A DNA stretch of 50,854 bases from positions 1 through 50,854 of the forward strand of contig PARP01000035.1 in assembly GCA_002711565.1 (NCBI GenBank), given 5' to 3'. The notes under the pieces are model-generated. The model had not been told where the DNA came from and made no database searches. It worked only from the letters and a program-made list of their open reading frames with translations. The DNA comes from Bacteroidota bacterium (GTDB lineage Bacteria > Bacteroidota > Bacteroidia > Bacteroidales > GCA-2711565). The position numbers were made by a program, and so were the translations under genes. The first letter of the stretch is position 1. The number at the start of each line of letters is the position of its first letter. Positions 32,692-50,854 of this stretch are shown in pieces.

Positions 32692-33213
32692 ATGCCCGGA
32701 AGACAATTAACATATCAGTGGTTTGCATTATATACCAAATCTCGCAATGAGAAAAAGGTATATACTCAATTAGTTAATCAGGGCATTGAGTGCTTCTTAC
32801 CTCTAGAAACCAAACTCAAACAATGGAGTGATCGAAAGAAAAAGGTTGAAGAACCCATGATCAAATCCTATGTTTTTGTAAAGTCCAGTGAGAAGGAATA
32901 TTATGATATTCTAAATACACCTGGTGCTGTAAGATATGTAACATTTGAAGGTAAAGCTGCTCCAATCCCCGACTGGCAGATTGATGTCATGCGAAGAATG
33001 GTTGAATTGGATGAGCCTCACCATTATTCAGCCTCTTTCTTTAAAAAAGGAGATCTAGTAGAGATCGATGAGGGAACTCTTAAGGGATTTAAAGGAGAAA
33101 TAATCAGGGATAATGAAGGTAAGCAGAGGATTATTATTCGCATTGAAAACATTGGTTACTCCATGGTGGTAGAAACAAATGTAAATAATATCAGATTAAC
33201 AAATGACAAGTAA
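32692..33213 (+). CDS. UpxY/RfaH-like transcription antiterminator (NusG family)
   Basis: 173 residues. The NGN domain (about 9-105) opens YQWFALYTKSRNEKKVYTQL and contains ECFLPLETKLKQWSDRKKKV. The KOW motif is KKGDLVEIDEGTLKGFKGEI. In Bacteroides, UpxY proteins are the first genes of capsule operons and let RNA polymerase read through the long operon; the position here is equivalent. It overlaps the upstream part of the Wza frame. Confidence 0.88.
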   Translation: MPGRQLTYQWFALYTKSRNEKKVYTQLVNQGIECFLPLETKLKQWSDRKKKVEEPMIKSYVFVKSSEKEYYDILNTPGAVRYVTFEGKAAPIPDWQIDVMRRMVELDEPHHYSASFFKKGDLVEIDEGTLKGFKGEIIRDNEGKQRIIIRIENIGYSMVVETNVNNIRLTNDK

Positions 33214-33232
33214 CAAACTTCAAATAATTGCT

Positions 33233-35578
33233 ATGAAAACAAAACTCACCATTTTATTTATTCTTTGTCTGGGATGTATGATTACTTTAAATGCACAAGA
33301 CATCACCAATGTTGATGTTAAGAATTTAAGTGATGCCCAAATCCAGCAAATTATTAGTGAAGTAGAAAGTCGTGGATTGACAATGGATCAAGCGATCGCT
33401 CTTGCTCAAACAAGAGGTGCTTCACCTACACAAATCAATGATCTTAGACGTCGAATTCAAGACTTACAAAAAGGAAAACAAGGTCAAAATCCAACTAGCT
33501 CAATTGCCAATCCGGAGGCTCAAACAACACAGTCTTCAAAAATCATGAGAGAAGCCTTCACTGAAAAGGCTGAAATAGAAGCTACAACTAAGAACAAATC
33601 AATATTTGGTTTTAATTTGTTTAATAATCAGAATTTAACCTTTGAACCTTCTATTAATATTCCTACACCAGCGGGCTATGTGCTTGGAATTGGAGATGAG
33701 ATTTTTATTAATATTTGGGGTGCAAGTCAGCAATCTTACCAACTTATCGTTAAACAAAATGGAGCAATCCATATTGACGATATCGGACCTGTGTTTGTTT
33801 CTGGTTTAAGTCTTGAAAATGCTGAAAGGAGAATCAAGAACAGATTAACAGCTATCTATGCAGGAATGCGTGGTGACAACCCAACTACATTCTCGCAGAT
33901 CAGTTTAGGGAATTTACGTGCAATTAAGATCAACATTATCGGCGAGGTAAATGTTCCAGGTACTTATAATCTTCCATCAACGGCAACAGCTTTCAATGCT
34001 TTATACCTATCAGGAGGACCTAATGAAAATGGTTCATTCAGAAACATTCAATTGATCAGAAATGGAAAAATCATCCAGGTGATCGATGTTTATGATTTTA
34101 TTCTGAAAGCTGAAATGACCGGTAATGCTCAACTTAGAGACCAGGATATACTTTTCGTTCCTACTTATCAGAACAGAGTTTCAGTAGAGGGAGCTTTCAA
34201 ACGAAATGCATTATTTGAACTTACCAATCAGGAATCATTGGCAGATCTGATCCAATATGCAGGAAATTTTAGCGATGAAGCATATAAATCAAATGTAAAC
34301 ATTGTTAGAATTAAAGAAACAGAAAAAGAGATTATTACTGTTGCAACTAAAGATTTTGCTGAGTTCAGATTGCAAAACGGTGATGAGGTTTCAGCGGGTA
34401 GCATTAATGATGTCTACAAGAATAAAGTTACTATTGCTGGTTCTGTTAACAGACCAGGAGAATATGAATGGAAACCTGATCTAAAGCTTAGCAGTCTTAT
34501 AATTATGGCAGACTCCTTAACCGAAGATGCCTTTAAAGAAAGAGCCGTTTTAACCCGGGTTAATGAAGATCTAACTGAAAGAATTATTTCTATCGATATT
34601 GCGAAGGTGATTAGTGGTATGGAGGATATTACTTTACTACCTCAAGACAGGATAGAGATCAAATCTCACTTCGAGCTGAAATCAGATAGATATATTACTG
34701 TTTCCGGAGAGGTAAATACACCTGGTAGATTTGATTATTATGATAACCTAACCCTTGGAGAAGCATTATTCTTTGCAAACGGTCTGAATGACGCAGCTGA
34801 CACGACATATGTTGAAGTCTCAAGGGTTTTGGACAAAAATGAGATGTCAAGACTTGGTGACAAACTAGCACATATTTATACAATGAAGATCCCAAGAAAC
34901 CTAAGTACTAATCTTCAGGATCTGTCATTTAAACTTGAAGTGTTCGATCAGATTAATGTAAGAAGAGCTCCAAACTATAAGCAACAAGGGACAGTTTATG
35001 TTGTTGGAGAAGTTTTATATGGTGGTTCATTTTCTTTACGCAGACGAGAAATGAGAATTTCCGAACTGATCAGCTTATCAGGTGGATTAACAAAATATGC
35101 TTACGCTGAAGGTGCAAGCTTTGAGCGTACCACAGAAGATCTGGGATATGAAAATGTAGCTATTGACCTGAATTATATTATTTCTAATCCTAATAGCGGA
35201 TATGACCTCATTCTAAGAGATGGAGATCGATTAAAGGTACCAAGAATGATGCAGACAGTTAAAGTTTCAGGAGCTGTTCAAAACCCTGTATCTATTACTT
35301 ATTCAAAAGAAGTAGGACTCAAATATTATATCAATCAGGCTGGTGGATATTCTGACTTAGCAATGAAGCGCAAAGTTTATGTAAAATATCCTAATGGTAA
35401 AACAGCGACCACAACCAATTTCATTTTTAAGAACTACCCTGAGATTAAGCCAGGTTGTGAAATTATCGTTCCTCAAAAAGAAGAAAAACAAAGAATAGAT
35501 AATAGTGGTAAATGGATGGCTTGGTCATCTGTAATTGCTTCTTTAGCGGTTGCTTTTGCAACAATTTTCAAGAATTAA
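33233..35578 (+). CDS. polysaccharide export outer-membrane protein (Wza-like, SLBB repeats)
   Basis: 781 residues from ATG 33233. An open frame reaches back to 33203, but MKTKLTILFILCLGCMITL is a clear signal peptide, cleaved near LNA-QD. The polysaccharide-export domain starts about residue 140 (PAGYVLGIGDEIFINIWG). Several SLBB repeats follow (ISLGNLRAIKINIIGEVNVP, NKVTIAGSVNRPGEYEW, YITVSGEVNTPGRFDYY and others), and a hydrophobic C-terminal segment (about 755-775). It should form the outer-membrane channel for the polymer made by this locus. Longer than enterobacterial Wza, as is usual in Bacteroidota. Confidence 0.9.
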   Translation: MKTKLTILFILCLGCMITLNAQDITNVDVKNLSDAQIQQIISEVESRGLTMDQAIALAQTRGASPTQINDLRRRIQDLQKGKQGQNPTSSIANPEAQTTQSSKIMREAFTEKAEIEATTKNKSIFGFNLFNNQNLTFEPSINIPTPAGYVLGIGDEIFINIWGASQQSYQLIVKQNGAIHIDDIGPVFVSGLSLENAERRIKNRLTAIYAGMRGDNPTTFSQISLGNLRAIKINIIGEVNVPGTYNLPSTATAFNALYLSGGPNENGSFRNIQLIRNGKIIQVIDVYDFILKAEMTGNAQLRDQDILFVPTYQNRVSVEGAFKRNALFELTNQESLADLIQYAGNFSDEAYKSNVNIVRIKETEKEIITVATKDFAEFRLQNGDEVSAGSINDVYKNKVTIAGSVNRPGEYEWKPDLKLSSLIIMADSLTEDAFKERAVLTRVNEDLTERIISIDIAKVISGMEDITLLPQDRIEIKSHFELKSDRYITVSGEVNTPGRFDYYDNLTLGEALFFANGLNDAADTTYVEVSRVLDKNEMSRLGDKLAHIYTMKIPRNLSTNLQDLSFKLEVFDQINVRRAPNYKQQGTVYVVGEVLYGGSFSLRRREMRISELISLSGGLTKYAYAEGASFERTTEDLGYENVAIDLNYIISNPNSGYDLILRDGDRLKVPRMMQTVKVSGAVQNPVSITYSKEVGLKYYINQAGGYSDLAMKRKVYVKYPNGKTATTTNFIFKNYPEIKPGCEIIVPQKEEKQRIDNSGKWMAWSSVIASLAVAFATIFKN

Positions 35579-35609
35579 AACACACAACTCTGCCCTAAAA
35601 AATATTAAT

Positions 35610-36731
35610 ATGTCAAAAAAAGAAAACAATATTCAGTTTACAACCAGTGAAGGGGAGATAGATCTTTTAGCTTTGTTAAAAGTACTGTGGGTAAAGCGTA
35701 AGTTGTTAATCTATTTTGTAAGCGTAGGTATTTTATTCGGTTTACTATTTGCATTCACAACGCCGAAACAATATCGAGTTTCTTCAACCTTAGTTCCTCA
35801 AGTAGGAAGCTCTACCAATAAGCTTGGTGGCCTCTCTTCACTTGCTGCAATGGCTGGATTTAAAATGGACATGCCTGTGAGTTCTGAGCTAAACCCAATG
35901 GTTTATCCGAAAATTCTTAATAGTAATGCATTCAAAAAAGACTTGATGTATTGCAAATTTGATTTCGAAAGAGCTGACAAACCTATTACATTATTCGAAT
36001 ATTTTACTCAGGATAAGTATCACAAATTCAGCTTGGCCGGTTTTATTGAAACTTATACTATAAGACTACCTGAAGTCATTATAAGAGCGCTTACCAAAAC
36101 TGATGATGCTGGTGGAGCTTCTGGCCTACAAAGTAAAAGTGAAATATTATCCTTAAATGGACCAGAATATGAAATATCCAAGATCTTAACGGATATTGTA
36201 TTCTTATCGATAAATGACAAGGATGGTTATTTGGTTTTAACCGTTAATATGCCAGAAGCTAAAGCAACAGCACAATTAGGTCATCATACTTTAAGATTAT
36301 TACAGGAGTACATTACTAAATACAGAATTGAAAAAGCCGAACAACAGCTTGAATTTATTCAATCCAGATTTGATCAAAAAAAGAAGGATTTTGAAACCGC
36401 GCAATTAGAGCTTGCTAATTTCCGTGATAAGAACAAATTTGTTTCCACGGCCGTAGCAAAAACTCAGGAAGAAAAACTTCAAAGTGAGTATCAACTAGCC
36501 TTCGAAGTGTATTCTGAATTAGCCCAACAACTCGAAGCTGCAAAAATTAAGGTTAAAGAAGAAACACCTGTACTCACAGTCATTGAACCTATTAGCATCC
36601 CTAATAAATACTTTAAACCTAAGAGAAAAAATATTCTGATCCTTTGGATGGCCACTAGTTTATTCTTGGGTATCTGTTGGATTTTTGGTCAGATCTATTA
36701 CAAAGAATTAAAAAGAAAATGGAATCAATAG
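35610..36731 (+). CDS. chain-length determinant protein (Wzz family)
   Basis: 373 residues from ATG 35610; the frame extends upstream to 35550 only within the end of the Wza gene. TM1 lies near residues 31-50 (LIYFVSVGILFGLLF). A periplasmic region with coiled coil (KAEQQLEFIQSRFDQKKKDF) follows. TM2 is near the C-terminus after PNKYFKPKRKN, with the proline-rich motif reduced. There is no fused tyrosine kinase. It regulates polymer length with Wzy and Wza. Confidence 0.88.
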   Translation: MSKKENNIQFTTSEGEIDLLALLKVLWVKRKLLIYFVSVGILFGLLFAFTTPKQYRVSSTLVPQVGSSTNKLGGLSSLAAMAGFKMDMPVSSELNPMVYPKILNSNAFKKDLMYCKFDFERADKPITLFEYFTQDKYHKFSLAGFIETYTIRLPEVIIRALTKTDDAGGASGLQSKSEILSLNGPEYEISKILTDIVFLSINDKDGYLVLTVNMPEAKATAQLGHHTLRLLQEYITKYRIEKAEQQLEFIQSRFDQKKKDFETAQLELANFRDKNKFVSTAVAKTQEEKLQSEYQLAFEVYSELAQQLEAAKIKVKEETPVLTVIEPISIPNKYFKPKRKNILILWMATSLFLGICWIFGQIYYKELKRKWNQ

Positions 36732-36785
36732 ATTCTCTATTCATATCATATTTCTAAAATATCAACATCAACAAACTTTATTATA

Positions 36786-37757
36786 ATGACACAAACCGGG
36801 AATAGAAAGAACTTTGCATTAATTGGCGCTTCAGGATATATTGCTCCGCGTCATATGAAAGCCATCAAAGATACCGACAATCAGTTGTTGGCAGCTCTTG
36901 ATCCATTTGATAGCGTTGGTATTCTGGATAGCTATTTTCCGGATGCAGACTTCTTTGTTGAGCCTGAAAGGTTCGACAGACATCTTGATAAGAAAAGACG
37001 TAATGGGGGAAATAAGATCGATTATGTAAGTATTTGCTCTCCGAACTATCTGCATGATGCACACATTAGAATGGCATTGAGAAATGAAGCTAATGCGATC
37101 TGTGAGAAACCGATCGTACTAAACCCATGGAATATAGATGCATTAAAAGAGATCGAACGCGAAAGTGGAAAACGAATCTATAATATCCTTCAACTAAGAT
37201 TACATCAAAGTATCATTGATCTGAAGAAACAAGTAGACGAAGGTCCTGCCGATAAGATCTACGACATCGATCTAACATATATCACTTCCAGAGGACATTG
37301 GTATTTTGTGTCATGGAAAGGTGATTCACAAAAATCAGGTGGTGTAGCAACAAATATTGGAGTGCATTTCTTCGATATGCTTACATACATCTTTGGAAAG
37401 TGTAATAAAAGCCTTGTACATAAATTAGATAAGAATACAAATGCTGGTTATCTTGAGCTAGAAAAGGCCAGAGTAAGATGGTTCTTGAGTGTAGATTCAA
37501 ATAATCTTCCTGAAAGTGCAGTTGTGAAAGGACAACGTACATACAGGTCTATACAGATGGAAGGCCAGGAAATTGAATTCTCTGGTGGTTTCACAGATCT
37601 CCATACCCTAGTTTATAAAGACATCTTAGATGGTAAAGGATTCGGTTTGGAAGATGCCAGAACAAGTATCGAAATCGTTCATGAGATCCGTAAAGCAGAA
37701 GTGCATGCTTTAACCGGAGATTATCATCCTCTTTTAAAATCAAAAAGCTTAGTATAA
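36786..37757 (+). CDS. Gfo/Idh/MocA oxidoreductase, WlbA/WbpB-like (UDP-N-acetylamino-glucuronate 3-dehydrogenase)
   Basis: 323 residues. The NAD-binding start is NFALIGASGYIAPRHMKAIK. SICSPNYLHDAHIRMALRN and ICEKPIVLNP (the conserved EKP lysine) follow, with the WlbA-type C-terminal half (SRGHWYFVSWKGDSQKSGG). In the Wbp/Wlb pathway this enzyme oxidises C3 of UDP-GlcNAcA, made by a WbpA-type dehydrogenase, which is the next gene. The pair therefore points to a 2,3-diamino-uronic acid. The matching WbpE and WbpD genes are not adjacent. Confidence 0.85.
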   Translation: MTQTGNRKNFALIGASGYIAPRHMKAIKDTDNQLLAALDPFDSVGILDSYFPDADFFVEPERFDRHLDKKRRNGGNKIDYVSICSPNYLHDAHIRMALRNEANAICEKPIVLNPWNIDALKEIERESGKRIYNILQLRLHQSIIDLKKQVDEGPADKIYDIDLTYITSRGHWYFVSWKGDSQKSGGVATNIGVHFFDMLTYIFGKCNKSLVHKLDKNTNAGYLELEKARVRWFLSVDSNNLPESAVVKGQRTYRSIQMEGQEIEFSGGFTDLHTLVYKDILDGKGFGLEDARTSIEIVHEIRKAEVHALTGDYHPLLKSKSLV

Positions 37758-37796
37758 AAACCCTAATTAAAAACGGAACTTAAATATTGAATACGA

Positions 37797-39095
37797 ATGA
37801 ATAAAGAAATTAAAATTGCAGTTATTGGCTTAGGTTATGTAGGATTGCCATTGGCAGTAGAGTTCGCCAAGAAATTTCCTGTAGTAGGTTTTGAGATCAA
37901 TCAAGGCCGTGTTGACGAATTAAACGAAGGACATGATCCTACTCTTGAAGTTGACGATGAAAACTTACAAGCTGTTCTTTCTTTAGACGCAAATGTGAAT
38001 GAAAAAGGAAAAGGTTTATACTTAACTACGAATATGGATGATATCAAGTCTTCTAATATTTATATAATCGCAGTACCTACTCCAACAGATAAAAACAATC
38101 GCCCTGATCTTACTCCATTAGTGAAAGCATCAGAGACTGTTGGTAAAGTATTATCAAAAGATGACATAGTGATTTATGAGTCAACTGTTTATCCTGGAGC
38201 TACTGAGGATGACTGTGTACCAGTATTGGAAGAAGTTTCAGGTGAGAAGATGAATGATTTCTTTTATGTTGGATATTCTCCAGAGAGAATCAATCCGGGC
38301 GACAAAGTGAACACCTTACTTACGATTACAAAAGTTACTTCTGGTTCAACTCCTGAAACCGGAAAGATCGTTGATGATCTTTATAATGAGATCTTATTAA
38401 ATGGTACTCATCTTGCACCATCAATCAAAGTTGCTGAAGCTTCTAAAGTGATCGAAAACTCGCAAAGAGATATCAATATTGCATTTGTGAATGAGCTATC
38501 AAAAATCTTTAATCTTTTAGAAATTGATACTCTTGATGTACTTGAGGCTGCTGGCACAAAATGGAACTTCCTTCCTTTCAGGCCAGGTCTTGTAGGTGGT
38601 CACTGTATTGGTGTTGATCCTTTCTATTTAGCACAGAAGGCTCAGGAAGTTGGATATCATCCAGAGATCATTTTAGCAGGACGTCGTTTGAATGATTCAA
38701 TGGGTAGTTATGTTGCAGGTGAAGTGGTAAAACTTATGCTAAAATCAGGTCTTCCTGTTAAAGATAATAAGGTTTTAATCTTAGGAATCACATTTAAGGA
38801 AAACTGTCCTGATATCAGAAATACCCGAGCAATTGATGTTGTTGATGAGTTCAAACAATACGGTGTAGAAGTAGATGTATATGATCCAATGGCATGCCCG
38901 AAGGAAGTAATGCATGAATATGGTATCAAGATTGTAAACGAACTACCAGAAGAGAAAAACTATGGAGCAGTTGTACTAACTGTTGCACATGAGAAATTCA
39001 AAGAAATGGATCTTTCAGAATACAAAGCAAACGGAAGTATCATTTACGACGTTAAAGGAATTCTTGAAAAATCAATCATTGATTCAAGATTATAA
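37797..39095 (+). CDS. UDP-N-acetyl-hexosamine 6-dehydrogenase (WbpA/TviB-like)
   Basis: 432 residues of the UDP-glucose/UDP-mannose dehydrogenase family. The Rossmann start is [39 protein letters not shown] follows, and the catalytic Cys is in [19 protein letters not shown]. The DPTLEVDDE and KVTSG segments resemble WbpO/TviB/WbpA rather than UDP-glucose dehydrogenases. It should oxidise UDP-GlcNAc or UDP-GalNAc to the uronic acid, giving the substrate of the WlbA-like enzyme before it. Confidence 0.88.
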
Positions 39096-39170: not shown

Positions 39171-40286
39171 ATGTTAAAAAGGGCACTCATTACAGGCGTT
39201 ACAGGTCAAGATGGCGCATATTTATCTGAGTTTTTACTTAAAAAAGGTTATGAAGTTCATGGTATTAAACGCAGATCTTCACTTATAAACACTGACAGGA
39301 TCGATCATATTTATCAGGATCCTCACTCTGATAATATACGTTTTAGGTTGCACTATGGTGATATGACAGATAGTACCAACTTAATTCGCATTATTCAGGA
39401 AGTTCAACCTGATGAAATCTATAATCTGGCTGCAATGAGTCATGTTCATGTTAGTTTTGATACCCCCGAATATACTGCTAATGCTGATGGTTTAGGAACT
39501 TTAAGAATTCTTGAAGCCATCCGGATTCTTGGAATGGAAAAGAAAACCAGGATCTATCAAGCATCTACCTCAGAACTATACGGTTTGGTTCAGGAAGTCC
39601 CTCAAACAGAAACAACTCCTTTCTACCCACGTTCACCATATGCGGTTGCCAAAATGTATGCATACTGGATCACTGTAAACTATCGTGAAGCATACGGAAT
39701 TTTTGCTTCTAACGGTATTTTATTTAACCACGAATCACCTATTCGTGGTGAAACATTTGTAACTAGAAAGATCACGCGTGCCGTTTCCAGAATTGCCCTT
39801 GGCTTACAGGATAAGGTCTACCTTGGAAACTTAAATGCAAAAAGAGATTGGGGTCATGCCAAAGATTATGTTAGAATGATGTGGATGATCCTTCAGGCTA
39901 AAGAAGCCGAAGATTGGGTTATTGCTACGGGTATTACCACTCCGGTAAGAGATTTCGTAAAAATGGCCTTCGAAAAAGTTGGAATAGAAATTGAATTCAA
40001 AGGATCAGGTGAAAACGAAAAAGGCTATGTCAAGAGCTGCTCAATGAATGAATATCAATTAGAGATCGGATCTGAAGTAGTTTGTGTCGATCCTAGATAT
40101 TACAGACCAACAGAAGTTGAGCTACTTGTTGGAGATGCTACCAAAGCACATGAAAAACTAGGTTGGAAACCAGAATACAATCTGGATGAATTAATTGAAG
40201 ATATGATGACCAGCGATATTAAGCTGATGCAAAAAGATCAGTTTCTAAAAGACAATGGTTTCCAAACACTTAACTACTATGAATAA
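39171..40286 (+). CDS. gmd: GDP-mannose 4,6-dehydratase
   Basis: 371 residues, the normal Gmd length. The NADP-binding motif is [33 protein letters not shown] and [19 protein letters not shown] follow, with the Y-x-x-x-K pair in [13 protein letters not shown] and Gmd-type RRSS near 36-39. It converts GDP-mannose to GDP-4-keto-6-deoxymannose, the precursor of GDP-fucose. Its last 8 bp overlap the fcl start. Confidence 0.94.
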
Positions 40287-41352
40287 GAATTCGAAAATAT
40301 ATGTTGCCGGCCATACTGGATTAGTGGGCTCTGCGATCGTAAGAGCTCTTGAAGCAAAAGGTTATACTAATATCGTTGGCAAATCATTCGAAGAACTTGA
40401 TCTAAGAGATCAAAATGCAGTTGCAACTTATTTTGAGGAAACAAAACCTGAATATGTGTTCCTTGCTGCAGCAAAAGTTGGTGGAATTGTTGCAAACAAT
40501 ACCTATAGAGCAGAATTCATTTATGAAAACCTGATGATCCAAAATAATATCATCCACCAATCATATCTGAATAATGTAAAGAAACTATTATTCCTTGGAT
40601 CAACATGTATTTATCCAAAGAATGCACCTCAACCGCTTCAGGAAGACGCTTTGCTTTCTTCCCAGCTTGAATATACCAATGAACCTTATGCAATCGCAAA
40701 AATTGCAGGAATCAAGCTCATTGAAAGCTATAATCTTCAATATGGCACCAACTATCTGGCAGTAATGCCAACTAATATATATGGACCTTACGATAATTTC
40801 GATCTTGAGAAAAGCCATGTACTACCAGCATTGATCCGCAAGATTCATCTTGGTAAATGTCTTGAAGAAAATAAATGGGATGAGATTAAAAATGACTTGA
40901 ACAGAAGACCTATAGAAGGAGTATCAGGAAATGCGGATAAAACAGAGATTCTAGAAAAACTAGGCAAATATGGTATTATTGATAAGCCTGGTCAAGTTGA
41001 AATATGGGGCACAGGCAAACCAATGCGTGAATTCTTATGGTCAGAAGAATTAGCAAGTGCTTGTGTTTTCGTTGTTGAAAATGTAAACTTCGATGATTTA
41101 CATAATGGAAGCGGTGAGATCTTAAATACCCACATAAATATTGGTACTAGTGAGGAAATAAGCATTTATGATCTTGCACATAAAATAAAAGGCATTATTG
41201 GATATAAAGGTGAGCTAGTATTTAATTCTGACAAACCTGACGGTACAATGAGAAAGGTGACCAATACCGATAAGATCCATGATCTGGGCTGGAAACATGA
41301 GATCAAGATCGATCAAGGAATTGAGAAACTTTATAACTGGTATACTTCTTAA
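40279..41352 (+). CDS. fcl: GDP-L-fucose synthase
   Basis: 357 residues from ATG 40279 ([20 protein letters not shown]); the open frame from 40255 lies inside gmd. [20 protein letters not shown] and [13 protein letters not shown] carry the Ser/Tyr/Lys catalytic set. An insert at about 200-235 (containing [17 protein letters not shown]) makes it longer than the 321-residue E. coli enzyme; such inserts are common in Bacteroidota. It epimerises and reduces the Gmd product to GDP-L-fucose. ATGAATAA overlap with gmd implies coupling. Confidence 0.93.
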
Positions 41353-41385: not shown

Positions 41386-42735
41386 ATGAATAAACTTGTT
41401 CAACAATTTCTTGAAAAAACGACTAAAAGATCGTTAAAGGCCTACAAAAATATGTTGGGTCTGTTTGTTGTCAAAGGCCTGAATGTAGGTGTAAGCTTCT
41501 TAATGGTGCCTCTCGCACTGGGTTATCTCGACCAAACAAGGTATGGAATCTGGATTACACTCTATGGAATTTTCAATTGGTTCAGTCTCTTCGATATTGG
41601 ACTAGGAAATGGCTTAAGAAATAGACTAACCGAAGCACTTGCTAATAAGGATCTGTTTAAAGCAAAGGTTCTGATCAGTACTACATATGCAGCATTAATT
41701 TTGATCTTTGCAGCACTTTTCGCTGTCTTTGCTATAATTAATAATTTCTTAGACTGGACAATTCTACTTAATACACCAACTTCATTCAGAGAAGAGCTAA
41801 ATCTATTAGCTGCATTTGTTTTCTTTTTCTTCTGTATGAGATTTGCGGCTCAACTTGTTACCTCAGTCGCATTAGCGAAGCAAGATCCGGCATTATCACA
41901 AACACTGGAGTTGATAGGGAGGATTATGGCTTTGGCAGGTGTTTTCCTGCTAACAATTTATACAGAAGGTAGCATTCTTTATTTAGGTGTAGTATTAACT
42001 GCAGTGCCGGTTTTTACAGTCATTTTACTTAGTATAATCCTCTACCTGAAAAAATATAGAGACATCTGTCCTTCAATAAAGCTTATAAGATTCAAAGAGC
42101 TCAACAATGTCTTAAACCTAGGATTGAAGTTCTTCATAATTCAGATTGCAGCCATCATTTTTTATCAAACTAATAATTTCATTATTGCTCAGCTTTTTGG
42201 TCCATCAGAAGTTACATCTTTCGATATTTCATTCCAATACTTTGGTATAGCTACCATAGGTTTTATGACAATTCTGATTCCATATTGGTCGGCCATTACA
42301 GATGCATTTACGAGAGGTGATATTGTCTGGATCAAAAATGTTGTAAAGAATCTGAAGCTAATTTGGATCGGTCTTTTAGGACTAGTTATCGCATTATACT
42401 TGCTTTCTGATTTTCTGGTTGACCTATGGCTTGGTGGCAAGATCGAAGTTCAAAAAGATTTATACTTCGTAATGGGGCTTTATGTTCTTGTAAATGCATT
42501 TAATGCTATTTACAGCCAATTCTTAAATGGTGTAGGCAAGGTAATGATTCAATTCTATATTGCATTATCACTAGCGATAATTCATATTCCATTAGCAATT
42601 TTCTTTAGTCAGCATTTTGGAATAAAAGGTATGCTATTCTCAACAATTGGATTTGGGGTTATAACCATCTTTATATATAATTTACAATACAAAAAGATCC
42701 TTAACGGGACAGCAAAGGGTATTTGGAATAAATAG
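41386..42735 (+). CDS. polysaccharide flippase (Wzx/MATE-like oligosaccharide transporter)
   Basis: 449 residues, almost entirely hydrophobic, with about 12 predicted membrane segments. The N-terminal pattern (YKNMLGLFVVKGLNVGVSF, then GYLDQTRYGIWITLYGIFNW and LFDIGLGNGLRNRL) is typical of the O-antigen/polysaccharide export family. It moves the lipid-linked repeat unit across the inner membrane. No wzy polymerase is recognised yet; it may lie beyond the right edge. Confidence 0.88.
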   Translation: MNKLVQQFLEKTTKRSLKAYKNMLGLFVVKGLNVGVSFLMVPLALGYLDQTRYGIWITLYGIFNWFSLFDIGLGNGLRNRLTEALANKDLFKAKVLISTTYAALILIFAALFAVFAIINNFLDWTILLNTPTSFREELNLLAAFVFFFFCMRFAAQLVTSVALAKQDPALSQTLELIGRIMALAGVFLLTIYTEGSILYLGVVLTAVPVFTVILLSIILYLKKYRDICPSIKLIRFKELNNVLNLGLKFFIIQIAAIIFYQTNNFIIAQLFGPSEVTSFDISFQYFGIATIGFMTILIPYWSAITDAFTRGDIVWIKNVVKNLKLIWIGLLGLVIALYLLSDFLVDLWLGGKIEVQKDLYFVMGLYVLVNAFNAIYSQFLNGVGKVMIQFYIALSLAIIHIPLAIFFSQHFGIKGMLFSTIGFGVITIFIYNLQYKKILNGTAKGIWNK

Positions 42736-44040: not shown

Positions 44041-44265
44041 ATGAACTTAGAAAGTATAAAAACAATCATTAATACAGTTCTGCAAAATCGTGGAAAACAA
44101 GAAGTAGAATCCATCTCTGAATCAACTGAACTAAGAGATGATGTTGGGTTTGATTCCCTGGATCTTGCAGAGTTAACTGTACGAATAGAAGCAGAGTTTG
44201 ACGTAGATGTTTTTGAAGATGGCATCGTGAATACTGTAGGTGATATACTTGCTAAACTTAAATAA
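44041..44265 (+). CDS. acyl carrier protein
   Basis: 74 residues with the phosphopantetheine site DVGFDSLDLAEL (Ser39), in a four-helix acidic ACP. It lies 8 bp after the glycosyltransferase and is followed by an acyl-AMP ligase, an SDR and a GNAT. It is therefore a dedicated carrier for an acyl group put onto a sugar, not the fatty-acid ACP (inference). The ligase ATG is one base after the ACP stop codon. Confidence 0.9.
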   Translation: MNLESIKTIINTVLQNRGKQEVESISESTELRDDVGFDSLDLAELTVRIEAEFDVDVFEDGIVNTVGDILAKLK

Positions 44266-44266
44266 A

Positions 44267-45505
44267 ATGAATAGTCTTTTCTTTTTCGATAGTTCTAACA
44301 ATAAAAAGTATTTCTGGCAAGAACTGATAGATCAGATACATGATTCAAAGGAGTTTAATCCTTTTTGTAAGTCAGATGATTATTTTGAAGTATTCAAGCA
44401 AATTGTAATTTCTATTCTTTTAGAAGAAAAAATTACCCTATTGGATAGCGATTTCAGCCATGAGGAAATTTTTAAGCTTACAGGACTTGAAGATTATAAG
44501 AGTCTTCAGAAAGGAATTGACAAGACTAAACTTAAACATATTAGTACTAAGTCGGATCTAATACGAGAATTAAAAAATTGCTCAGACCAGTGGGAAATAA
44601 CCTTGTATACAAGTGGAACTACCGGTTTGCCAAAATCAGTTACTCATAAATTTCAATCCTTTACTAGGTACGTAAAGATAAGTGAGAGCAATTCAAATAA
44701 TGTATGGGGATTTGCATATAATCCTACACATATGGCAGGATTGCAGGTGTTTTTCCAAGCACTCATGAATGGGAATTCTATTATTAGGTTATTTGAACTA
44801 CCGAATGACATAATTTTATCCAATATCCAAGAATTCAACATTACTCATATTTCAGCAACACCAACATTTTATCGTTTATTAGATTTAAAGACGAAAACAT
44901 TTCCTAGTGTATTAAGAATTATTTCAGGTGGTGAAAAAATTGATCTGAATAAGATCAGGGAGCTCAATAAGGCTTTCATAAATGCAGAGATTAGGAATGT
45001 CTATGCTTCAACTGAAGCAGGAACCTTATTTGCTTCTCAGGGAGATCAGTTTTCAATTCGGAATGAACTTAAGAATTTTGTAAAACTCGTTGAAAATGAA
45101 CTTCATATTCACAAATCCTTGCTTGGACAAAGTGGGTTTTTGTCAGATGAGTGGTATGCAAGCGGAGACCTTGTAGAAATCATCAATCAAGATCCCTTAG
45201 TTTTTAAGTTTTTATCAAGAAAAAATGAGATGATCAATGTCGCAGGATACAAAGTTAATCCAAATGAGGTTGAGGAAGTAATTAGAGAAATCAATGGGGT
45301 TAATGAGGTTTCTGTTTTTGCTAAAAAGAATTCAGTGATAGGAAATATTATATGTTGTGAGATCGTAAAAGGTTCTGAGGAACTCACTGAAGCTGATATT
45401 AGAAAATATCTTCAGTCGAAACTTCAAGAATTTAAATTACCTCGAATTATAAAATTCGTTTCGCAAATCAAAACTACAAGAACGGGAAAACTTAAAAGAA
45501 AATAA
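44267..45505 (+). CDS. AMP-forming acyl ligase (ANL family), probable acyl-ACP synthetase
   Basis: 412 residues from ATG 44267, which follows the ACP stop by 1 bp; shorter than the usual 500 or more residues. The ANL motifs are present: P-loop LYTSGTTGLPKSVTHK, the A5-like VYASTEAGTLFAS, the ASGDLVEI hinge region, GYKVNPNEVEE, and the catalytic C-terminal Lys in RTGKLKRK. It should activate a carboxylic acid as the adenylate and load it on the neighbouring ACP. The acid cannot be deduced. Confidence 0.88.
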   Translation: MNSLFFFDSSNNKKYFWQELIDQIHDSKEFNPFCKSDDYFEVFKQIVISILLEEKITLLDSDFSHEEIFKLTGLEDYKSLQKGIDKTKLKHISTKSDLIRELKNCSDQWEITLYTSGTTGLPKSVTHKFQSFTRYVKISESNSNNVWGFAYNPTHMAGLQVFFQALMNGNSIIRLFELPNDIILSNIQEFNITHISATPTFYRLLDLKTKTFPSVLRIISGGEKIDLNKIRELNKAFINAEIRNVYASTEAGTLFASQGDQFSIRNELKNFVKLVENELHIHKSLLGQSGFLSDEWYASGDLVEIINQDPLVFKFLSRKNEMINVAGYKVNPNEVEEVIREINGVNEVSVFAKKNSVIGNIICCEIVKGSEELTEADIRKYLQSKLQEFKLPRIIKFVSQIKTTRTGKLKRK

Positions 45506-45506
45506 T

Positions 45507-46229
45507 ATGAATTTCATTGTTACAGGGATATCTAAAGGTGTTGGTTTAGAAATCACCAAGGTGCTTATATCAAAAGGTCATACGATTTTCGGAATTAGTC
45601 GTAATTCATCAGCAGAACTAGATGAACTAAGAAAAACTTATCCGGAAAATTTAAAATGGAGAAGTTATGATCTTACAGATCACAGATCGATTCGAGATGA
45701 ACTATTTAAGTCTTTTATTGGATTAAAAACAGAAATTCATGGTTATGTCAATAATGCTGCATTAGCATATGATGACATTATTACAAACCTGAATAATGAT
45801 CCACTAGAGAAAATGTTTAAGGTTAATGTTTACTCACCCTTCAACATTACTAAAAATGTAATAAGAAGCATGCTATTACACCAAATCAAAGGAAGTATTG
45901 TTCATCTCTCATCTATTAGCGTTCATACTGGATATAAAGGACTCTCAATGTATGCTTCTACAAAAGGTGCTTTAGAAGCTTTTTCAAAAAATACGGCACG
46001 AGAATGGGGATCATTGGGGATTCGATCAAACACAATTGTTGCAGGTTTTATGGAAACAGAAATGAGTTCTACTTTATCCGATAAACAAAGAAATAGAATT
46101 TTTGAAAGGACATCCCTGAAAAAACCAACAAGCTTGAATTCTGTAGCTAAAACTGTGGCATATTTATTAGAAGAGGATTCAATATCCATAACAGGACAAA
46201 ACATTCATGTTGATTCAGGAACTATATAA
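45507..46229 (+). CDS. short-chain dehydrogenase/reductase (FabG-like)
   Basis: 240 residues. The NAD(P) motif is FIVTGISKGVGLEITK (TGxxxGxG). NNAALAYDDI, HLSSISVHTGYKG and the Y-x-x-x-K pair MYASTKGALEAFSKN follow, and the C-terminal end is ITGQNIHVDSGTI, very like 3-oxoacyl-ACP reductases. Placed after ACP and its ligase, it may reduce an oxoacyl-ACP to a hydroxyacyl-ACP (inference). A role in sugar reduction is the alternative. Confidence 0.85.
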   Translation: MNFIVTGISKGVGLEITKVLISKGHTIFGISRNSSAELDELRKTYPENLKWRSYDLTDHRSIRDELFKSFIGLKTEIHGYVNNAALAYDDIITNLNNDPLEKMFKVNVYSPFNITKNVIRSMLLHQIKGSIVHLSSISVHTGYKGLSMYASTKGALEAFSKNTAREWGSLGIRSNTIVAGFMETEMSSTLSDKQRNRIFERTSLKKPTSLNSVAKTVAYLLEEDSISITGQNIHVDSGTI

Positions 46230-46230
46230 T

Positions 46231-46974
46231 ATGGACTATAAAAACAATTACGGCTCAATCTCATTTGAGGAGAATAAATGGGATAGTAGAGTTTTACAAT
46301 CCCCCGCAATTTCAATAAATGATATTGAGTATACATCCAATTGTAATCTTTTAATCGCCCAATTCATCAAAGATATTATGGGTGACTACTCTTTCGCTAC
46401 CTATAGAGCTATATCTAATGATCTAACTTTATTTAAAGCCTTATTTCAAAATCAATTTATTCAAGTTGAAAAATCATTTGGTATAAGTGGATCCAATTTC
46501 GATACAACTAAACTTAGCAGTCTCAAAAAAATGTCCAATATTGAAGAAATGTCAGGAGAGAATCAAGAGACTGAAGTGATTCAATTAGCAAGAGAGGAAT
46601 TTGCTCATGGTCGATTCTTTGAAGATCCATTTATAGATAATAAAACTGCAATTAAACGAAATGAAAATTGGATCCGCGATATGATAAATAATGATACACG
46701 AATAGTTGTATTGAAAAAGAAAGATCGCATCTATGGATTCATGGCTTACGAAGAATACGAAAGTCATCTACAATTACTATTGGGTGGTGTTCGGTCAACC
46801 CATCGTCATTTATCCTATTCTTTTTGGGCTAATTTCATATCTGAGTATGGTAATAAAAAGCCTATTAAGACGGTTATAAGTAGCTCTAACTTGCCGATTA
46901 TCAATTTATACGCCTACTTTGGTTTTCACTTTATAGAGAGCTTTACTGGATTCCACTTTCATAAAACAAGGTAA
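46231..46974 (+). CDS. GNAT-like N-acyltransferase of the aminosugar type
   Basis: 247 residues from ATG 46231, directly after the SDR stop; an earlier ATG at 46207 lies in the SDR gene. The C-terminal half has GNAT features (RDMINNDTRIVVLKKKDRIY, then LLLGGVRSTHRHLSYSFWA and an NLPIINLYAYFGFHF end), similar in layout to WecD/FdtC-type sugar N-acyltransferases. The N-terminal half is not recognised. The neighbours suggest that it transfers an acyl group, possibly from the ACP, to the amine made by the WecE-like enzyme. Confidence 0.72.
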   Translation: MDYKNNYGSISFEENKWDSRVLQSPAISINDIEYTSNCNLLIAQFIKDIMGDYSFATYRAISNDLTLFKALFQNQFIQVEKSFGISGSNFDTTKLSSLKKMSNIEEMSGENQETEVIQLAREEFAHGRFFEDPFIDNKTAIKRNENWIRDMINNDTRIVVLKKKDRIYGFMAYEEYESHLQLLLGGVRSTHRHLSYSFWANFISEYGNKKPIKTVISSSNLPIINLYAYFGFHFIESFTGFHFHKTR

Positions 46975-47011
46975 AAATATAACAAATCAACTCTTTCAAA
47001 TTCTTTTCTTA

Positions 47012-48433
47012 ATGCAAACAAGTAAAATTATAAAAACAGCATTCCTGAAATCAGCACTTACTGAAGAAAATCCACACATCAGTACTTCCGCAGTGATTGA
47101 TTGGTTAAAAGAAAGAAATAATGCCATTAAGGTTCATGTAAACAAGATCAGATTTGATCAAATGAAGCATTGGGCATTTGACCAGAATAGGGGACTACTT
47201 GGTCATAGCTCAGGTAAATTTTTCACCATAGAGGGGATGAATGTTAAAACAAATTGGGGTAAGGTTCCTGAATGGGAGCAACCCATAATCAATCAACCTG
47301 AAGTTGGATATCTGGGAATTATTACAAAAGAATTTAATGGAATTCTATACTTTCTTTTGCAAGCCAAAATAGAGCCTGGTAATGTTAATAATGTACAACT
47401 TTCTCCTACTCTTCAAGCAACAAGAAGTAATTATACGCAAGTACATAAAGGTAAAAAGCCTATGTACTTAGAGTATTTTCAAAATGCATCCAAGGATCAG
47501 GTTGTATTAGATCAACTTCAATCAGAACAAGGTGCAAGGTTTCTAAGAAAAAGAAATAGAAATATCATTATAAAGATCGAAGAAGATATTGAAGTTCATG
47601 AAGATTTTATCTGGTTATCTTTAGGTCAGATCAAAAAGCTGATCCGCCACGATAATCTTGTGAATATGGATACCAGAACTGTTATATCAGGTATTTCATA
47701 TGAAAATAAAAACCTATCGATTCAACTTAACGACTTTTTAACAGATGTTTTAATCAATAATACTTTTGAAACTGGAATGATCCTTTCAGCATTGAACAAT
47801 TCTTATTCAATGCATTCCTTTGATCAGATCCTGAATTGGATTACTGCATTAAAATGTTCTTTTGATCTAGAAATATCTTCAAAGTCAATATATGAAATAA
47901 AGGATTGGTATGTAGAGGATAAAGAGATCAGACATGCTAAGAATAAGTATTTTAAGGTAATAGCTACAGAGGTTGAAATCGAGAATCGGGAAGTTACTTC
48001 CTGGACGCAACCTCTTGTAGAACCTCTTCAAGAAGGTTTAATTGCATTCATAGTCAAAAAAATTAATGGAGTGTATCATTTCTTGGTTCAAGCAAAATTG
48101 GAATGTGGTAACTTTGATATTATAGAAATGGCACCAACGGTTCAGTGCCTTACAGATAGCTATTCCGAATCTGTGTTTTTACCATTTCTTTCAGATGTTC
48201 TCAATCCTAAACCAGGAAGTGTGAGATTCGATTCTCTGCAGTCTGAAGAAGGGGGCAGATTCTATCGTGAACAAAACCGAAATATTATTATTGAAGCTGA
48301 TGATGAATTCCCAATTGAAGTACCACCGAACTACATTTGGGTAACCTTGAATCAGCTTAATGCCTTTTTAAAATTTAATAACTATTTAAATATCCAGTCA
48401 AGAAGCTTGATTTCAGCAATCAGCTTCTTATAA
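47012..48433 (+). CDS. NDP-hexose 2,3-dehydratase (EvaA/TylX3-like)
   Basis: 473 residues made of two homologous halves. Each carries a V/IxFxxLQSExGxRFxRxxNRNIII motif: DQLQSEQGARFLRKRNRNII near 170-190 and SLQSEEGGRFYREQNRNIII near 410-430. This duplicated layout is that of the EvaA/TylX3 family. These enzymes remove the C2 hydroxyl of NDP-4-keto-6-deoxyglucose and start the route to 2,6-dideoxysugars, best known from antibiotics. It is unusual in a surface-polysaccharide locus. Confidence 0.87.
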   Translation: MQTSKIIKTAFLKSALTEENPHISTSAVIDWLKERNNAIKVHVNKIRFDQMKHWAFDQNRGLLGHSSGKFFTIEGMNVKTNWGKVPEWEQPIINQPEVGYLGIITKEFNGILYFLLQAKIEPGNVNNVQLSPTLQATRSNYTQVHKGKKPMYLEYFQNASKDQVVLDQLQSEQGARFLRKRNRNIIIKIEEDIEVHEDFIWLSLGQIKKLIRHDNLVNMDTRTVISGISYENKNLSIQLNDFLTDVLINNTFETGMILSALNNSYSMHSFDQILNWITALKCSFDLEISSKSIYEIKDWYVEDKEIRHAKNKYFKVIATEVEIENREVTSWTQPLVEPLQEGLIAFIVKKINGVYHFLVQAKLECGNFDIIEMAPTVQCLTDSYSESVFLPFLSDVLNPKPGSVRFDSLQSEEGGRFYREQNRNIIIEADDEFPIEVPPNYIWVTLNQLNAFLKFNNYLNIQSRSLISAISFL

Positions 48434-48443
48434 TTCGTTAAAT

Positions 48444-49586
48444 ATGAGAATTCCTTTTAATAAAGTTCATTTCGCAGGAAATGAGGAGAAATATGTATTA
48501 GATGCACTGCATTCTGGTGCACATTGCGGAAATCATAAGTACTGTTCTAAAGTAGTGGATCTGATGAAAGATCAATTTAACTTTGGAGATGTTTTCTTAA
48601 CTCCTTCCGGAACAGCAGCCCTTGAAATGGGAATTGTTCTGGCTGGTATTGAACCTGGAGATGAAGTTATTCTTCCATCTTATACTTTTAGCTCAACCGT
48701 TAATGCTGTTGTACTTTTCGGTGGCATTCCAGTATTCTGTGAAGTAGATCCTATAACAATGAATATTGATGCCACAAAAATTGAAGCATTAATTACAGAG
48801 AAAACAAAAATGATCTTACCTATTGATTATGCAGGCCTATCTTGCGATATCGAAATGATCATGGAGATCGCAAATAGACATAATCTGATCGTTTTCCAGG
48901 ATTGCGCCCAAAGTTATGGAAGTTATTATAAGAATAAAGCCTGTGGAGCTGAAGCACATATTGCAGCATTTAGTTTTCATGAAACTAAAAATTTTAATGC
49001 GGGAGAAGGTGGGGCCTTAGTTGTAAATGTACCTGAATGGCATGAAAGAGCATATTTTCTTCAGGAAAAAGGAACCGACCGCAGATTAGTTCTTAAAGGC
49101 GTTAAAAATAAATATAGTTGGGTAGATAAAGGATCAAGTTATCTGCTTTCAGACATCCTCGCAGCTATGCTTTATGCACAGCTTGAGAAAGAAGAAGCAA
49201 TTAGAACTAAACGCTCTGCAATCACGGATGCCTATAGTAACCTTTTTGCTCCATTTATGAATAAGGGTCATATTCAAATGCTTAGCTCTACAGACGACCA
49301 CAAATTAAACCATCATGCATTTTGGGTAGTATTTGATACAATGGAAAACAGTGTTCGGTTCATGGAAATGCTAAGAGAAAAAAACGTTTCTGTATATATT
49401 GGCTATCTTCCTCTGCATTCAGCACCTATGGGTTTAAAATATGGATATAAAGCTGAAGATCTTCCTTTGACAGAAGATCTGGCTTCAAGAATAACACGTT
49501 TACCATTTTATACAGATTTAGCAGATAATGGTTTGGAATATTGTATCGAATCTATGAATGAAGTTTTAAATAAAATTTATCAATAA
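48444..49586 (+). CDS. WecE-like NDP-4-keto-6-deoxyhexose aminotransferase (DegT/DnrJ/EryC1)
   Basis: 380 residues. It opens MRIPFNKVHFAGNEEKYVLD and follows WecE closely: SGAHCGNHKYC, LTPSGTAALEMG, EVILPSYTFSSTVNA, and AAFSFHETKNFNAGEGGAL with the PLP Lys in HETKN. C-terminal features include VYIGYLPLHSAP. It should place an amino group at C4 of a 4-keto sugar. Its stop overlaps the next start (TAATG). Confidence 0.88.
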   Translation: MRIPFNKVHFAGNEEKYVLDALHSGAHCGNHKYCSKVVDLMKDQFNFGDVFLTPSGTAALEMGIVLAGIEPGDEVILPSYTFSSTVNAVVLFGGIPVFCEVDPITMNIDATKIEALITEKTKMILPIDYAGLSCDIEMIMEIANRHNLIVFQDCAQSYGSYYKNKACGAEAHIAAFSFHETKNFNAGEGGALVVNVPEWHERAYFLQEKGTDRRLVLKGVKNKYSWVDKGSSYLLSDILAAMLYAQLEKEEAIRTKRSAITDAYSNLFAPFMNKGHIQMLSSTDDHKLNHHAFWVVFDTMENSVRFMEMLREKNVSVYIGYLPLHSAPMGLKYGYKAEDLPLTEDLASRITRLPFYTDLADNGLEYCIESMNEVLNKIYQ

Positions 49587-50536
49587 TGTTGAAATTTGCT
49601 GTAATTGGTTGTGGAAATATTGCTCAAAGAGCAAGCATACCAGCACTAATAGAATCTGAGGTGACTGAGATTGTAGTTTGTATAGATATCAATCCAGAAA
49701 TTGCAGAGGATATTAACATAAAATTTGGACTGCCTTTTGAAACAACACTGGAGGGTGCTCTGGAAAAATATGATTTTGATGCTGTTTACATTTCAACGCC
49801 TATTGGAACTCATCTTCCTTTAATAAAGTTAGCTGCAAAGAATAAGAAACAAATTCTTTGTGAGAAATCATTAGCCTGTAATTTAAAAGAGGTTGAGGAG
49901 ATAGTAACAGTCTGTAAAGAAAATGAATGTGCATTATTTGAAGGCTTTATGTATCAATTTCATGAGCAACATAAATATATTCGTGACCTCATTGATAAGA
50001 ATGAAATTGGTAGGCCACTTCATTTTCAAGCGTGGTTTGGTTTTCCTCCTTTAGTAAATAGTAATTTCAGATATATCAAAAAACTAGGCGGAGGAGCAAT
50101 CCTTGATGCTGGCTCTTATGTAATTCATGCTGCAAGACATTTCTTTGGCGTAGAACCAATATCAATAACTTCAGTGGTAGAAAATGAGGGTCATGAAGTA
50201 GACATTCATGGCACAGCTATGCTAAATTTTGGAGAAAGCAGAACCGCACATTTAGTCTTTGGATTTGATAATATGTATCAGAACAAATATGTTATTTGGG
50301 GTACAAAAGGCGTTTTAACACTTGATCGTGCATTTGCTATACCAGCAGATTTTAGTGCTACTCTTACCATTGAAAAACAAGGCGTAAAAGAAAATGTGAG
50401 CATGCCAAAATGTAATCATTTCATTGAAGAGTTAAAATACTTTGTGGAGAACTATAAAAACTCAGAGACACGCAATTCTTGGTATGATGAAGTCATTAAT
50501 CAATCCACCGCTATTCAGAAAATCTTAGAATCATAA
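49586..50536 (+). CDS. Gfo/Idh/MocA oxidoreductase, candidate NDP-hexose 3-ketoreductase (KijD10/SpnN-like)
   Basis: 316 residues. The NAD(P) start is FAVIGCGNIAQRASIPALIE. YISTPIGTHLPLIKLAAKN and LCEKSLACNLKEVEE (EKS replacing the common EKP) follow, with GFMYQFHEQHKYIRDLI and GGGAILDAGSYVIHAAR. In 2,6-dideoxysugar routes an enzyme of this family reduces the C3 ketone left by the 2,3-dehydratase. The presence of an EvaA homologue three frames upstream supports that role. Overlaps the aminotransferase gene by 1 bp. Confidence 0.8.
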   Translation: MLKFAVIGCGNIAQRASIPALIESEVTEIVVCIDINPEIAEDINIKFGLPFETTLEGALEKYDFDAVYISTPIGTHLPLIKLAAKNKKQILCEKSLACNLKEVEEIVTVCKENECALFEGFMYQFHEQHKYIRDLIDKNEIGRPLHFQAWFGFPPLVNSNFRYIKKLGGGAILDAGSYVIHAARHFFGVEPISITSVVENEGHEVDIHGTAMLNFGESRTAHLVFGFDNMYQNKYVIWGTKGVLTLDRAFAIPADFSATLTIEKQGVKENVSMPKCNHFIEELKYFVENYKNSETRNSWYDEVINQSTAIQKILES

Positions 50537-50538
50537 TC

Positions 50539-50854
50539 ATGAAACTTGTATATCGCTTATTTAACGCTTTACACTTCTTTCTATATGTATTAGGTTCAAA
50601 AGCCTATAATGCCATCAGTTTAAGTGTGCATAATATCAATTACCAGAAAGATATTATCATCAATGGCTATCCTAAGTTCAATATTCATAAGAATGGGAAA
50701 CTGATCATTGGAAACTGTTTTAAACTTAATAGCGGTAATGTTTTTAATTCAATTGGTAGAAATCAAAGAAGTCTTATCTCTGTTGGCAATAATGCCAGTT
50801 TAGAAATTGGTAATAATGTTGGCATGAGTTCGGTGGCAATAGTTTGTCAGAAGT
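50539..50854 (+). CDS. hexapeptide-repeat acyltransferase, N-terminal part (cut by window edge)
   Basis: Starts at ATG 50539 (MKLVYRLFNALHFFLYVLGS) and runs off the right end after about 105 residues. From about residue 50 a left-handed beta-helix pattern appears (HKNGKLIIGNCFKL, then LISVGNNASLEIGNNVGMSS). These are O- or N-acetyltransferases of the WbbJ/maltose-transacetylase type, common in polysaccharide loci. Starts 2 bp after the previous stop, so it is in the same operon. Confidence 0.8.
   Translation, partial: MKLVYRLFNALHFFLYVLGSKAYNAISLSVHNINYQKDIIINGYPKFNIHKNGKLIIGNCFKLNSGNVFNSIGRNQRSLISVGNNASLEIGNNVGMSSVAIVCQK

Follow-up and report, generated by a model that had tools for sequence, protein, structure and literature searches.

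Locus Organization

The window analyzed here is the whole of contig PARP01000035.1 (C16; 50,854 bp), part of a 2.07-Mb metagenome-assembled genome (MAG) of a Bacteroidota bacterium (71.7% complete, 3% contamination). At the end of a capsule or extracellular polysaccharide locus it carries a run of seven genes with predicted roles in the synthesis and N-acylation of an amino sugar. All seven open reading frames (ORFs) are on the + strand:

44041..44265, + strand, dedicated acyl carrier protein (ACP), 74 aa; PF00550, 1.2e-8; carrier Ser39 in GFDSLDLAE
44267..45505, + strand, AMP-forming acyl ligase, predicted to load the ACP; PF00501 and PF13193; ATG at 44267
45507..46229, + strand, FabG-like short-chain dehydrogenase/reductase (SDR), predicted 3-ketoacyl-ACP reductase; PF13561, 6e-42
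46231..46974, + strand, WecD-fold GCN5-related N-acetyltransferase (GNAT), predicted N-acyltransferase for the 4-amino group; assigned by predicted fold
47012..48433, + strand, EvaA-type nucleoside diphosphate (NDP)-4-keto-6-deoxyhexose 2,3-dehydratase; two PF03559 domains, 2e-152
48444..49586, + strand, WecE-type 4-aminotransferase of an EvaA-linked clade; NF008687, 432.6 bits; pyridoxal phosphate (PLP) Lys182
49586..50536, + strand, Gfo/Idh 3-ketoreductase, KijD10-like; 3rbv, 1e-46; K94 and Y178

The run begins 8 bp after a GT4 glycosyltransferase gene, and the gaps from that gene onward are 8, 1, 1, 1, 37, 10, -1, and 2 bp. The seven genes are probably one transcription unit because the gaps between them are only -1 to 37 bp. 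The contig stops at 50854, 318 bp beyond the last of the seven. An earlier note, made from the letters of the DNA, had described this locus; the ORFs are real and at the positions it gave, six have family matches, and the GNAT is recognized by its predicted fold. Other loci and genomes compared here are given as L and G numbers.

Dehydratase and Ketoreductase

The 47012..48433 product has a PDB match to EvaA (4j7g, 2e-110). Mutation of E139 or E190 abolishes EvaA activity (PMC8987622). E121 and E172 of the window dehydratase align with these residues, and 17 of 18 aligned proteins retain the pair. The top PDB matches of the Gfo/Idh protein are entries titled sugar 3-ketoreductase, 3rbv among others; we take 3rbv and the similarly titled entries to be KijD10 and its mutants. 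K94 and Y178 are equivalent to K102 and Y186, the catalytic lysine and tyrosine of KijD10, and are kept in all 13 aligned proteins. These matches and conserved residues support the 2,3-dehydratase and 3-ketoreductase route that had been proposed for the locus.

EvaA homologues also occur in other gene contexts. Loci L006, L007, and L038 encode homologues (57-59%); the stretches examined around them showed no Gfo/Idh 3-ketoreductase, and in L007 and L038 a 784-aa ORF is directly upstream. A highly divergent homologue (26%) is encoded at L045:8745-10016 (G111), where the second catalytic Glu is replaced by Asp.

Aminotransferase and Evidence for a Single Sugar

The WecE-type protein retains the PLP lysine and passes the NF008687 cut-off (432.6 bits; cut-off 375), and it fails that of TIGR02379 (373.8 bits; cut-off 434.85). 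The 4-amination by a WecE-type enzyme suggested earlier is supported. NF008687 describes the 4-amino-4,6-dideoxy sugar (Fuc4N) transaminase, and the WecE reaction requires only deoxythymidine diphosphate (dTDP)-4-keto-6-deoxyglucose. Both points would suit a scheme with two sugars, in which EvaA and Gfo/Idh yield a 2,6-dideoxy sugar and WecE yields a separate Fuc4N, only the latter being acylated.

Gene linkage points to one sugar. EvaA, Gfo/Idh, and WecE co-occur in five loci (window, L005, L009, L012, and L039), and the WecE proteins of the other four are 59-73% identical to that of the window. L009, from a Verrucomicrobiaceae MAG, has these three genes without the others of the set, and L012 belongs to a named strain, Flavobacterium luteum NBRC 112527. 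In seven further loci (L010, L013, L014, L015, L040, L041, and L042) a reductase replaces WecE beside the EvaA-Gfo pair. These reductases are one family with 42-56% mutual identity. WecE and this reductase are mutually exclusive, with no EvaA locus having both (exact test on five and six loci, L042 having been counted later as the seventh; p = 0.002, from loci that lack independence, since a single clade with support 99/96 takes in four of the five EvaA rows).

Phylogeny gives a similar picture. A tree that also held 30 further WecE proteins grouped all five EvaA-linked sequences in a single clade (support 100/100), with 57-73% identity within the clade and 36-45% to the other 30. Clade-specific residues include Ala at position 58, Asp at 128, and Gly at 320, where the other proteins have Asp, His, and His, respectively. 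Against TIGR02379 the EvaA-linked proteins score 368-390 (cut-off 434.85), whereas WecE proteins of L064 and L073, which are without EvaA, score at least 515. Within the order, the EvaA-linked type was found in two of 314 genomes (the window genome and G454), both with EvaA, and the next best match was 43%. By its sequence the EvaA-linked WecE would work like the WecE of enterobacterial common antigen (ECA) but as a sister clade.

The two-sugar scheme is therefore very unlikely: the EvaA-linked WecE is a separate clade, and a reductase takes its place in other EvaA loci. The window also lacks any counterpart of the 4-ketoreductases that complete 2,6-dideoxy sugars in those loci, and L009 holds the three genes alone. 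Co-occurrence, reductase exchange, and clade all suggest that dehydratase and aminotransferase act on the same sugar, and action on different sugars, which the earlier note had named as grounds for rejecting its proposal, is made unlikely by the clade and the exchange.

The seven EvaA-reductase loci are probably 2,6-dideoxyhexose cassettes. Several are in Bacteroidota glycan loci, which suggests that 2-deoxy sugars occur in such loci more often than has been supposed. An epimerase-family gene after Gfo in L005 was considered as a hidden 4-ketoreductase and rejected, having at most 24% identity to the reductase family.

ACP-Ligase-SDR Cassette

The first three genes recur as a unit. The order ACP-ligase-SDR is found in the window and in L058, L059, L060, L061, L062, L063, L069, and L070, and a more distant form in L073 brings the number to ten loci. 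The carrier serine is at the identical place in seven cassette ACPs; a second, better-scoring ACP of the genome is on contig C72. Relatives of the ligase (38-51%) are invariably between ACP and SDR, and its best PDB matches are scattered across many ligase types. The SDR has MupS and FabG as best PDB matches and is 55-64% identical to the SDRs of eight other cassettes.

An identifiable acyltransferase adjoins the cassette in nine of the ten loci. It is of the hexapeptide type in L059, L060, L062, L063, and L070, a GNAT in L061, and of the window type in the window, L069, and L073. The neighbor in L058 is a 323-aa protein with no Pfam match. Amino-sugar genes (FdtA and/or DegT family) are near the cassette in L059-L062 and L073. 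Such recurrence bears out the earlier view of ACP, ligase, and SDR as an acyl-making unit, and gene order suggests that they are a portable one.

Some cassettes are in other settings. At L069:7141-10082 (G046) the cassette and a GNAT, and at L070:7470-10209 (G331) the cassette and a hexapeptide acyltransferase, are outside any recognizable sugar locus. L073:6764-12705 (G282), where genes for WecE, a WecD-like GNAT, ACP, ligase, SDR, and a methyltransferase adjoin flagellin genes in tandem, is likely a flagellin glycan island. It resembles the viosamine island and the ACP, ligase, and FabG genes of enterobacterial flagellin islands (PMC3927599; PMC4875605).

Predicted WecD-Fold Acyltransferase

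The product of 46231..46974 has no match in Pfam, NCBIfam, or PDB sequence searches, including none to WecD, and it was classified by structure prediction. A model built from six sequences (predicted local distance difference test, 90.3) superseded an earlier one from four sequences (53.9, generic GNAT matches only). Its first PDB match is WecD (2fs5; Foldseek 1.4e-13; Z 20.7; root-mean-square deviation 2.5 over 214 residues), and the runner-up has Z 15.9. The GNAT call of the earlier note is thus upheld by a WecD-like predicted fold. The sugar that WecE makes is N-acetylated by WecD, and such a fold therefore suits the acceptor predicted here. WecD uses acetyl coenzyme A (CoA) as donor, and its PDB title is TDP-fucosamine acetyltransferase.

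The three closest relatives of the GNAT are in L069 (39%), L073 (27%), and L064 (29% over 117 aa). Those of L069 and L073 adjoin an ACP gene, and that of L064 adjoins an ACP-like gene (identified by eye, no Pfam match) accompanied by SDR, ligase, LuxE, and LuxC genes. Two of the three relatives (L064 and L073) are also near WecE-type genes. The L064 cluster (L064:9211-18729; G491) encodes GNAT, ACP-like protein, SDR, transketolase-like halves, AMP ligase, LuxE, LuxC, and a canonical WecE, and its make-up is reminiscent of an acyl-sugar pathway to which a fatty-reductase arm has been joined.

L005 has the gene order of the window (flippase, glycosyltransferase, GNAT, EvaA, WecE, Gfo) but is without the ACP cassette. 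EvaA, WecE, and Gfo of the two loci are 60-73% identical, and the GNATs only 18-21%. This strong divergence fits a change of acyl donor, without proving it.

The same sugar could also be made with the GNAT as a plain WecD-like, acetyl-CoA-dependent N-acetyltransferase, the cassette serving another acyltransferase, such as that encoded at 50539 or an enzyme from outside the contig. WecD itself has this fold and uses acetyl-CoA, the GNATs of L005 and L012 adjoin EvaA-WecE where the cassette is absent, and hexapeptide acyltransferases are the partners of other cassettes. However, the GNAT gene begins 1 bp past the SDR stop, its nearest relative (L069) also directly follows ACP-ligase-SDR where sugar genes are absent, and it has diverged from its L005 counterpart far more than the neighboring genes have. 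We consider this alternative unlikely. Sole use of acetyl-CoA, which the earlier note had said would count against its proposal, is made less likely by the relatives beside ACP genes, and acetyl-CoA may still be the only donor.

Genomic Setting and Nucleotide of the Sugar

The remaining features of the locus, with the gene at the contig end, are as follows:

32692..39095, + strand, head of the locus, with UpxY antiterminator, Wza-like export, Wzz-like, Gfo/Idh, and TviB-like dehydrogenase genes
39171..41352, + strand, Gmd and GDP-L-fucose synthase-like gene; TIGR01472, 594 bits; NF047922, 425 bits, under its 500 cut-off
41386..42735, + strand, flippase-like membrane protein (Wzx); MatE, 7e-6; 43% counterpart in L005
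42797..44032, + strand, GT4 glycosyltransferase; PF00534; 8 bp before the ACP gene; 34% counterpart in L005
50539..50854, + strand, gene cut by the contig end; hexapeptide-type acyltransferase by eye, unconfirmed

The readable 105 aa of the gene at 50539 have no Pfam match. G+C content is 0.32-0.33 across 42.5-48.5 kb versus about 0.36 before that in the locus, a dip that later acquisition might be expected to give. A search of the locus against Rfam gave no match, and terminator-like sites in it do not exceed chance expectation.

RmlB (481 bits) is encoded on contig C35 and RmlA (472 bits) on C28 of the same MAG, both over cut-off. The earlier note had stated that the window has no NDP-glucose 4,6-dehydratase and had suggested looking to its right for rmlA/rmlB-type genes. 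A 4,6-dehydratase, Gmd, is in fact present (39171-40286; 594 bits, cut-off 415), while the RmlB for this route does lie outside, as the note had it. To the right the contig simply ends at 50854, and the RmlA and RmlB genes are on the other two contigs.

Gmd, about 7 kb upstream in the same locus, might feed GDP-4-keto-6-deoxymannose to EvaA, and in L041, too, genes for Gmd and an Fcl-like protein are close to that for EvaA. We judge such a GDP route to be highly improbable. The GDP-L-fucose synthase-like gene after Gmd completes the usual fucose pair, which is presumably a separate supply of GDP-L-fucose. Characterized 2,3-dehydratases use dTDP sugars (PMC8987622), the L012 locus carries an RmlB that is 69% identical to that of the window genome, and both RmlA and RmlB are encoded in this genome. 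The nucleotide of the sugar is most likely dTDP.

Proposed Pathway

This analysis establishes the enzyme families, the key residues, and the gene linkages, which together make it likely that the seven genes serve a surface polysaccharide by producing an NDP-activated 4-amino-2,4,6-trideoxyhexose whose N4 bears a specific acyl group. Substrates, step order, stereochemistry, and acyl group are given below as we infer them. RmlA and RmlB, encoded elsewhere, would supply dTDP-4-keto-6-deoxyglucose. The EvaA-type dehydratase would remove O2 to give a 3,4-diketo-2,6-dideoxy sugar, the Gfo/Idh enzyme would reduce C3, and the WecE-type enzyme would aminate C4. In parallel, the ligase would activate an acid and charge the dedicated ACP with it, and the SDR would reduce the ACP-bound chain, most likely from 3-keto to a 3-hydroxyacyl-ACP such as 3-hydroxybutanoyl. 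Two points suggest this acyl group: the similarity of the SDR to ketoacyl-ACP reductases and the 3-hydroxybutanoyl group of the viosamine precedent. The WecD-fold GNAT would transfer the acyl group from the ACP to N4, and a glycosyltransferase would finally transfer the finished sugar.

Several points weigh against this pathway. Product, acyl group, and enzyme activities are predicted from the genes. RmlA and RmlB are encoded outside this contig, in a MAG that is 71.7% complete with 3% contamination, and Gmd in the same locus leaves room for a GDP-linked route. GNATs usually take acyl-CoA, and the use of acyl-ACP as donor is predicted here from gene linkage. Sugar genes are not nearby in L069, which has GNAT and cassette, or in L070, which has the cassette. 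The cut-off gene at 50539 could be a second acyltransferase.

A more specific proposal is that the WecD-fold GNAT moves its acyl group from the dedicated ACP, not from CoA, onto a 2-deoxy 4-amino sugar of a Gram-negative surface polysaccharide, and that ACP-ligase-SDR is an interchangeable R-group cassette for different acyltransferases in Bacteroidota-type glycan loci. We hold the chances of this to be about even. If the pathway is true, Gram-negative surface polysaccharides can contain a kind of sugar that is familiar chiefly from antibiotics of actinomycetes. It would also provide two sequence signatures, the EvaA-linked WecE clade for 2-deoxy 4-amino sugars and the ACP-ligase-SDR cassette for unusual N-acyl groups. 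Such groups can determine antigen type; in Flavobacterium psychrophilum it is set by the R-group genes (PMC6519341).

Comparison with Known Systems

The published route to dTDP-vicenisamine in actinomycetes, before N-methylation, consists of VinA, B, D, E, and F, and the full pathway also includes VinG (PMC11284099). As in the window, a 2,3-dehydratase, a 3-ketoreductase, and a 4-aminotransferase (VinD/E/F) act downstream of an RmlA/RmlB pair. In the actinomycete pathway the nitrogen receives a methyl group and the sugar is attached to a macrolactam (PMC11284099), whereas the window has an N-acyl module in place of the methyltransferase, and its genes belong to a polysaccharide locus of a Gram-negative bacterium. 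No N-methyltransferase is encoded among the seven genes.

The acyl module has its own counterparts. The viosamine island of Pseudomonas syringae (vioA, vioB, vioS, vioR, and acp) has a 4-aminotransferase, a dedicated ACP, a FabG-like reductase, and an acyltransferase, and its N-3-hydroxybutanoyl 4-amino sugar is backed by mutants and mass spectrometry (PMC3927599). There, however, a ketoacyl-ACP synthase III (KAS III; vioS) starts the chain, the acyltransferase VioB is not WecD-like, O2 is retained, and the sugar is on flagellin, whereas the window has an AMP-forming ligase, as does Vibrio cholerae with RfbL. In V. cholerae O1, the products of the tetronate genes, RfbK (carrier protein) and RfbL/WbeL (ligase), are proposed to prepare an acid that is attached to the nitrogen on a 4-amino-6-deoxy sugar of a surface polysaccharide (PMC12208996; PMC3441752); that sugar is perosamine, and loading of RfbK by the ligase is proposed as one option. 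The O-polysaccharide (O-PS) R-group genes wfpC-G of F. psychrophilum include an O-PS-specific ACP and a 3-ketoacyl-ACP reductase, whose predicted role is to supply the acyl group for the nitrogen on a 4-amino sugar (PMC6519341). They differ in having ketoacyl synthases to build the chain, a PglD-like acyltransferase, and Qui2NAc4N as the sugar. The earlier note had called ACP-linked acyl transfer to a sugar amine unusual, a remark that needs softening in view of these precedents (PMC3927599; PMC3441752 with PMC12208996; PMC6519341).

Escherichia coli WecE and WecD are alike in pairing a WecE-type enzyme with a WecD-fold acyltransferase. The window WecE is in a separate clade, with a predicted 2-deoxy substrate, and the predicted donor is acyl-ACP rather than acetyl-CoA. 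In function, the window system would amount to a vicenisamine-type sugar route coupled with an acyl module of the viosamine or tetronate kind. It does not fully belong to either, as it has no N-methyltransferase and no KAS III, its acyltransferase is different, and its WecE is in a separate clade. No literature case of 2,3-dehydratases or 4-amino-2,4,6-trideoxy sugars in Gram-negative polysaccharides was found, which is weak evidence since subscription papers were mostly outside the search; within the same, mostly non-subscription literature, no report of a 2-deoxy 4-amino sugar combined with an ACP acyl module was found. ACP-based N-acyl aminosugars are already known, and each half of the system is known from elsewhere; it is their combination that appears new.

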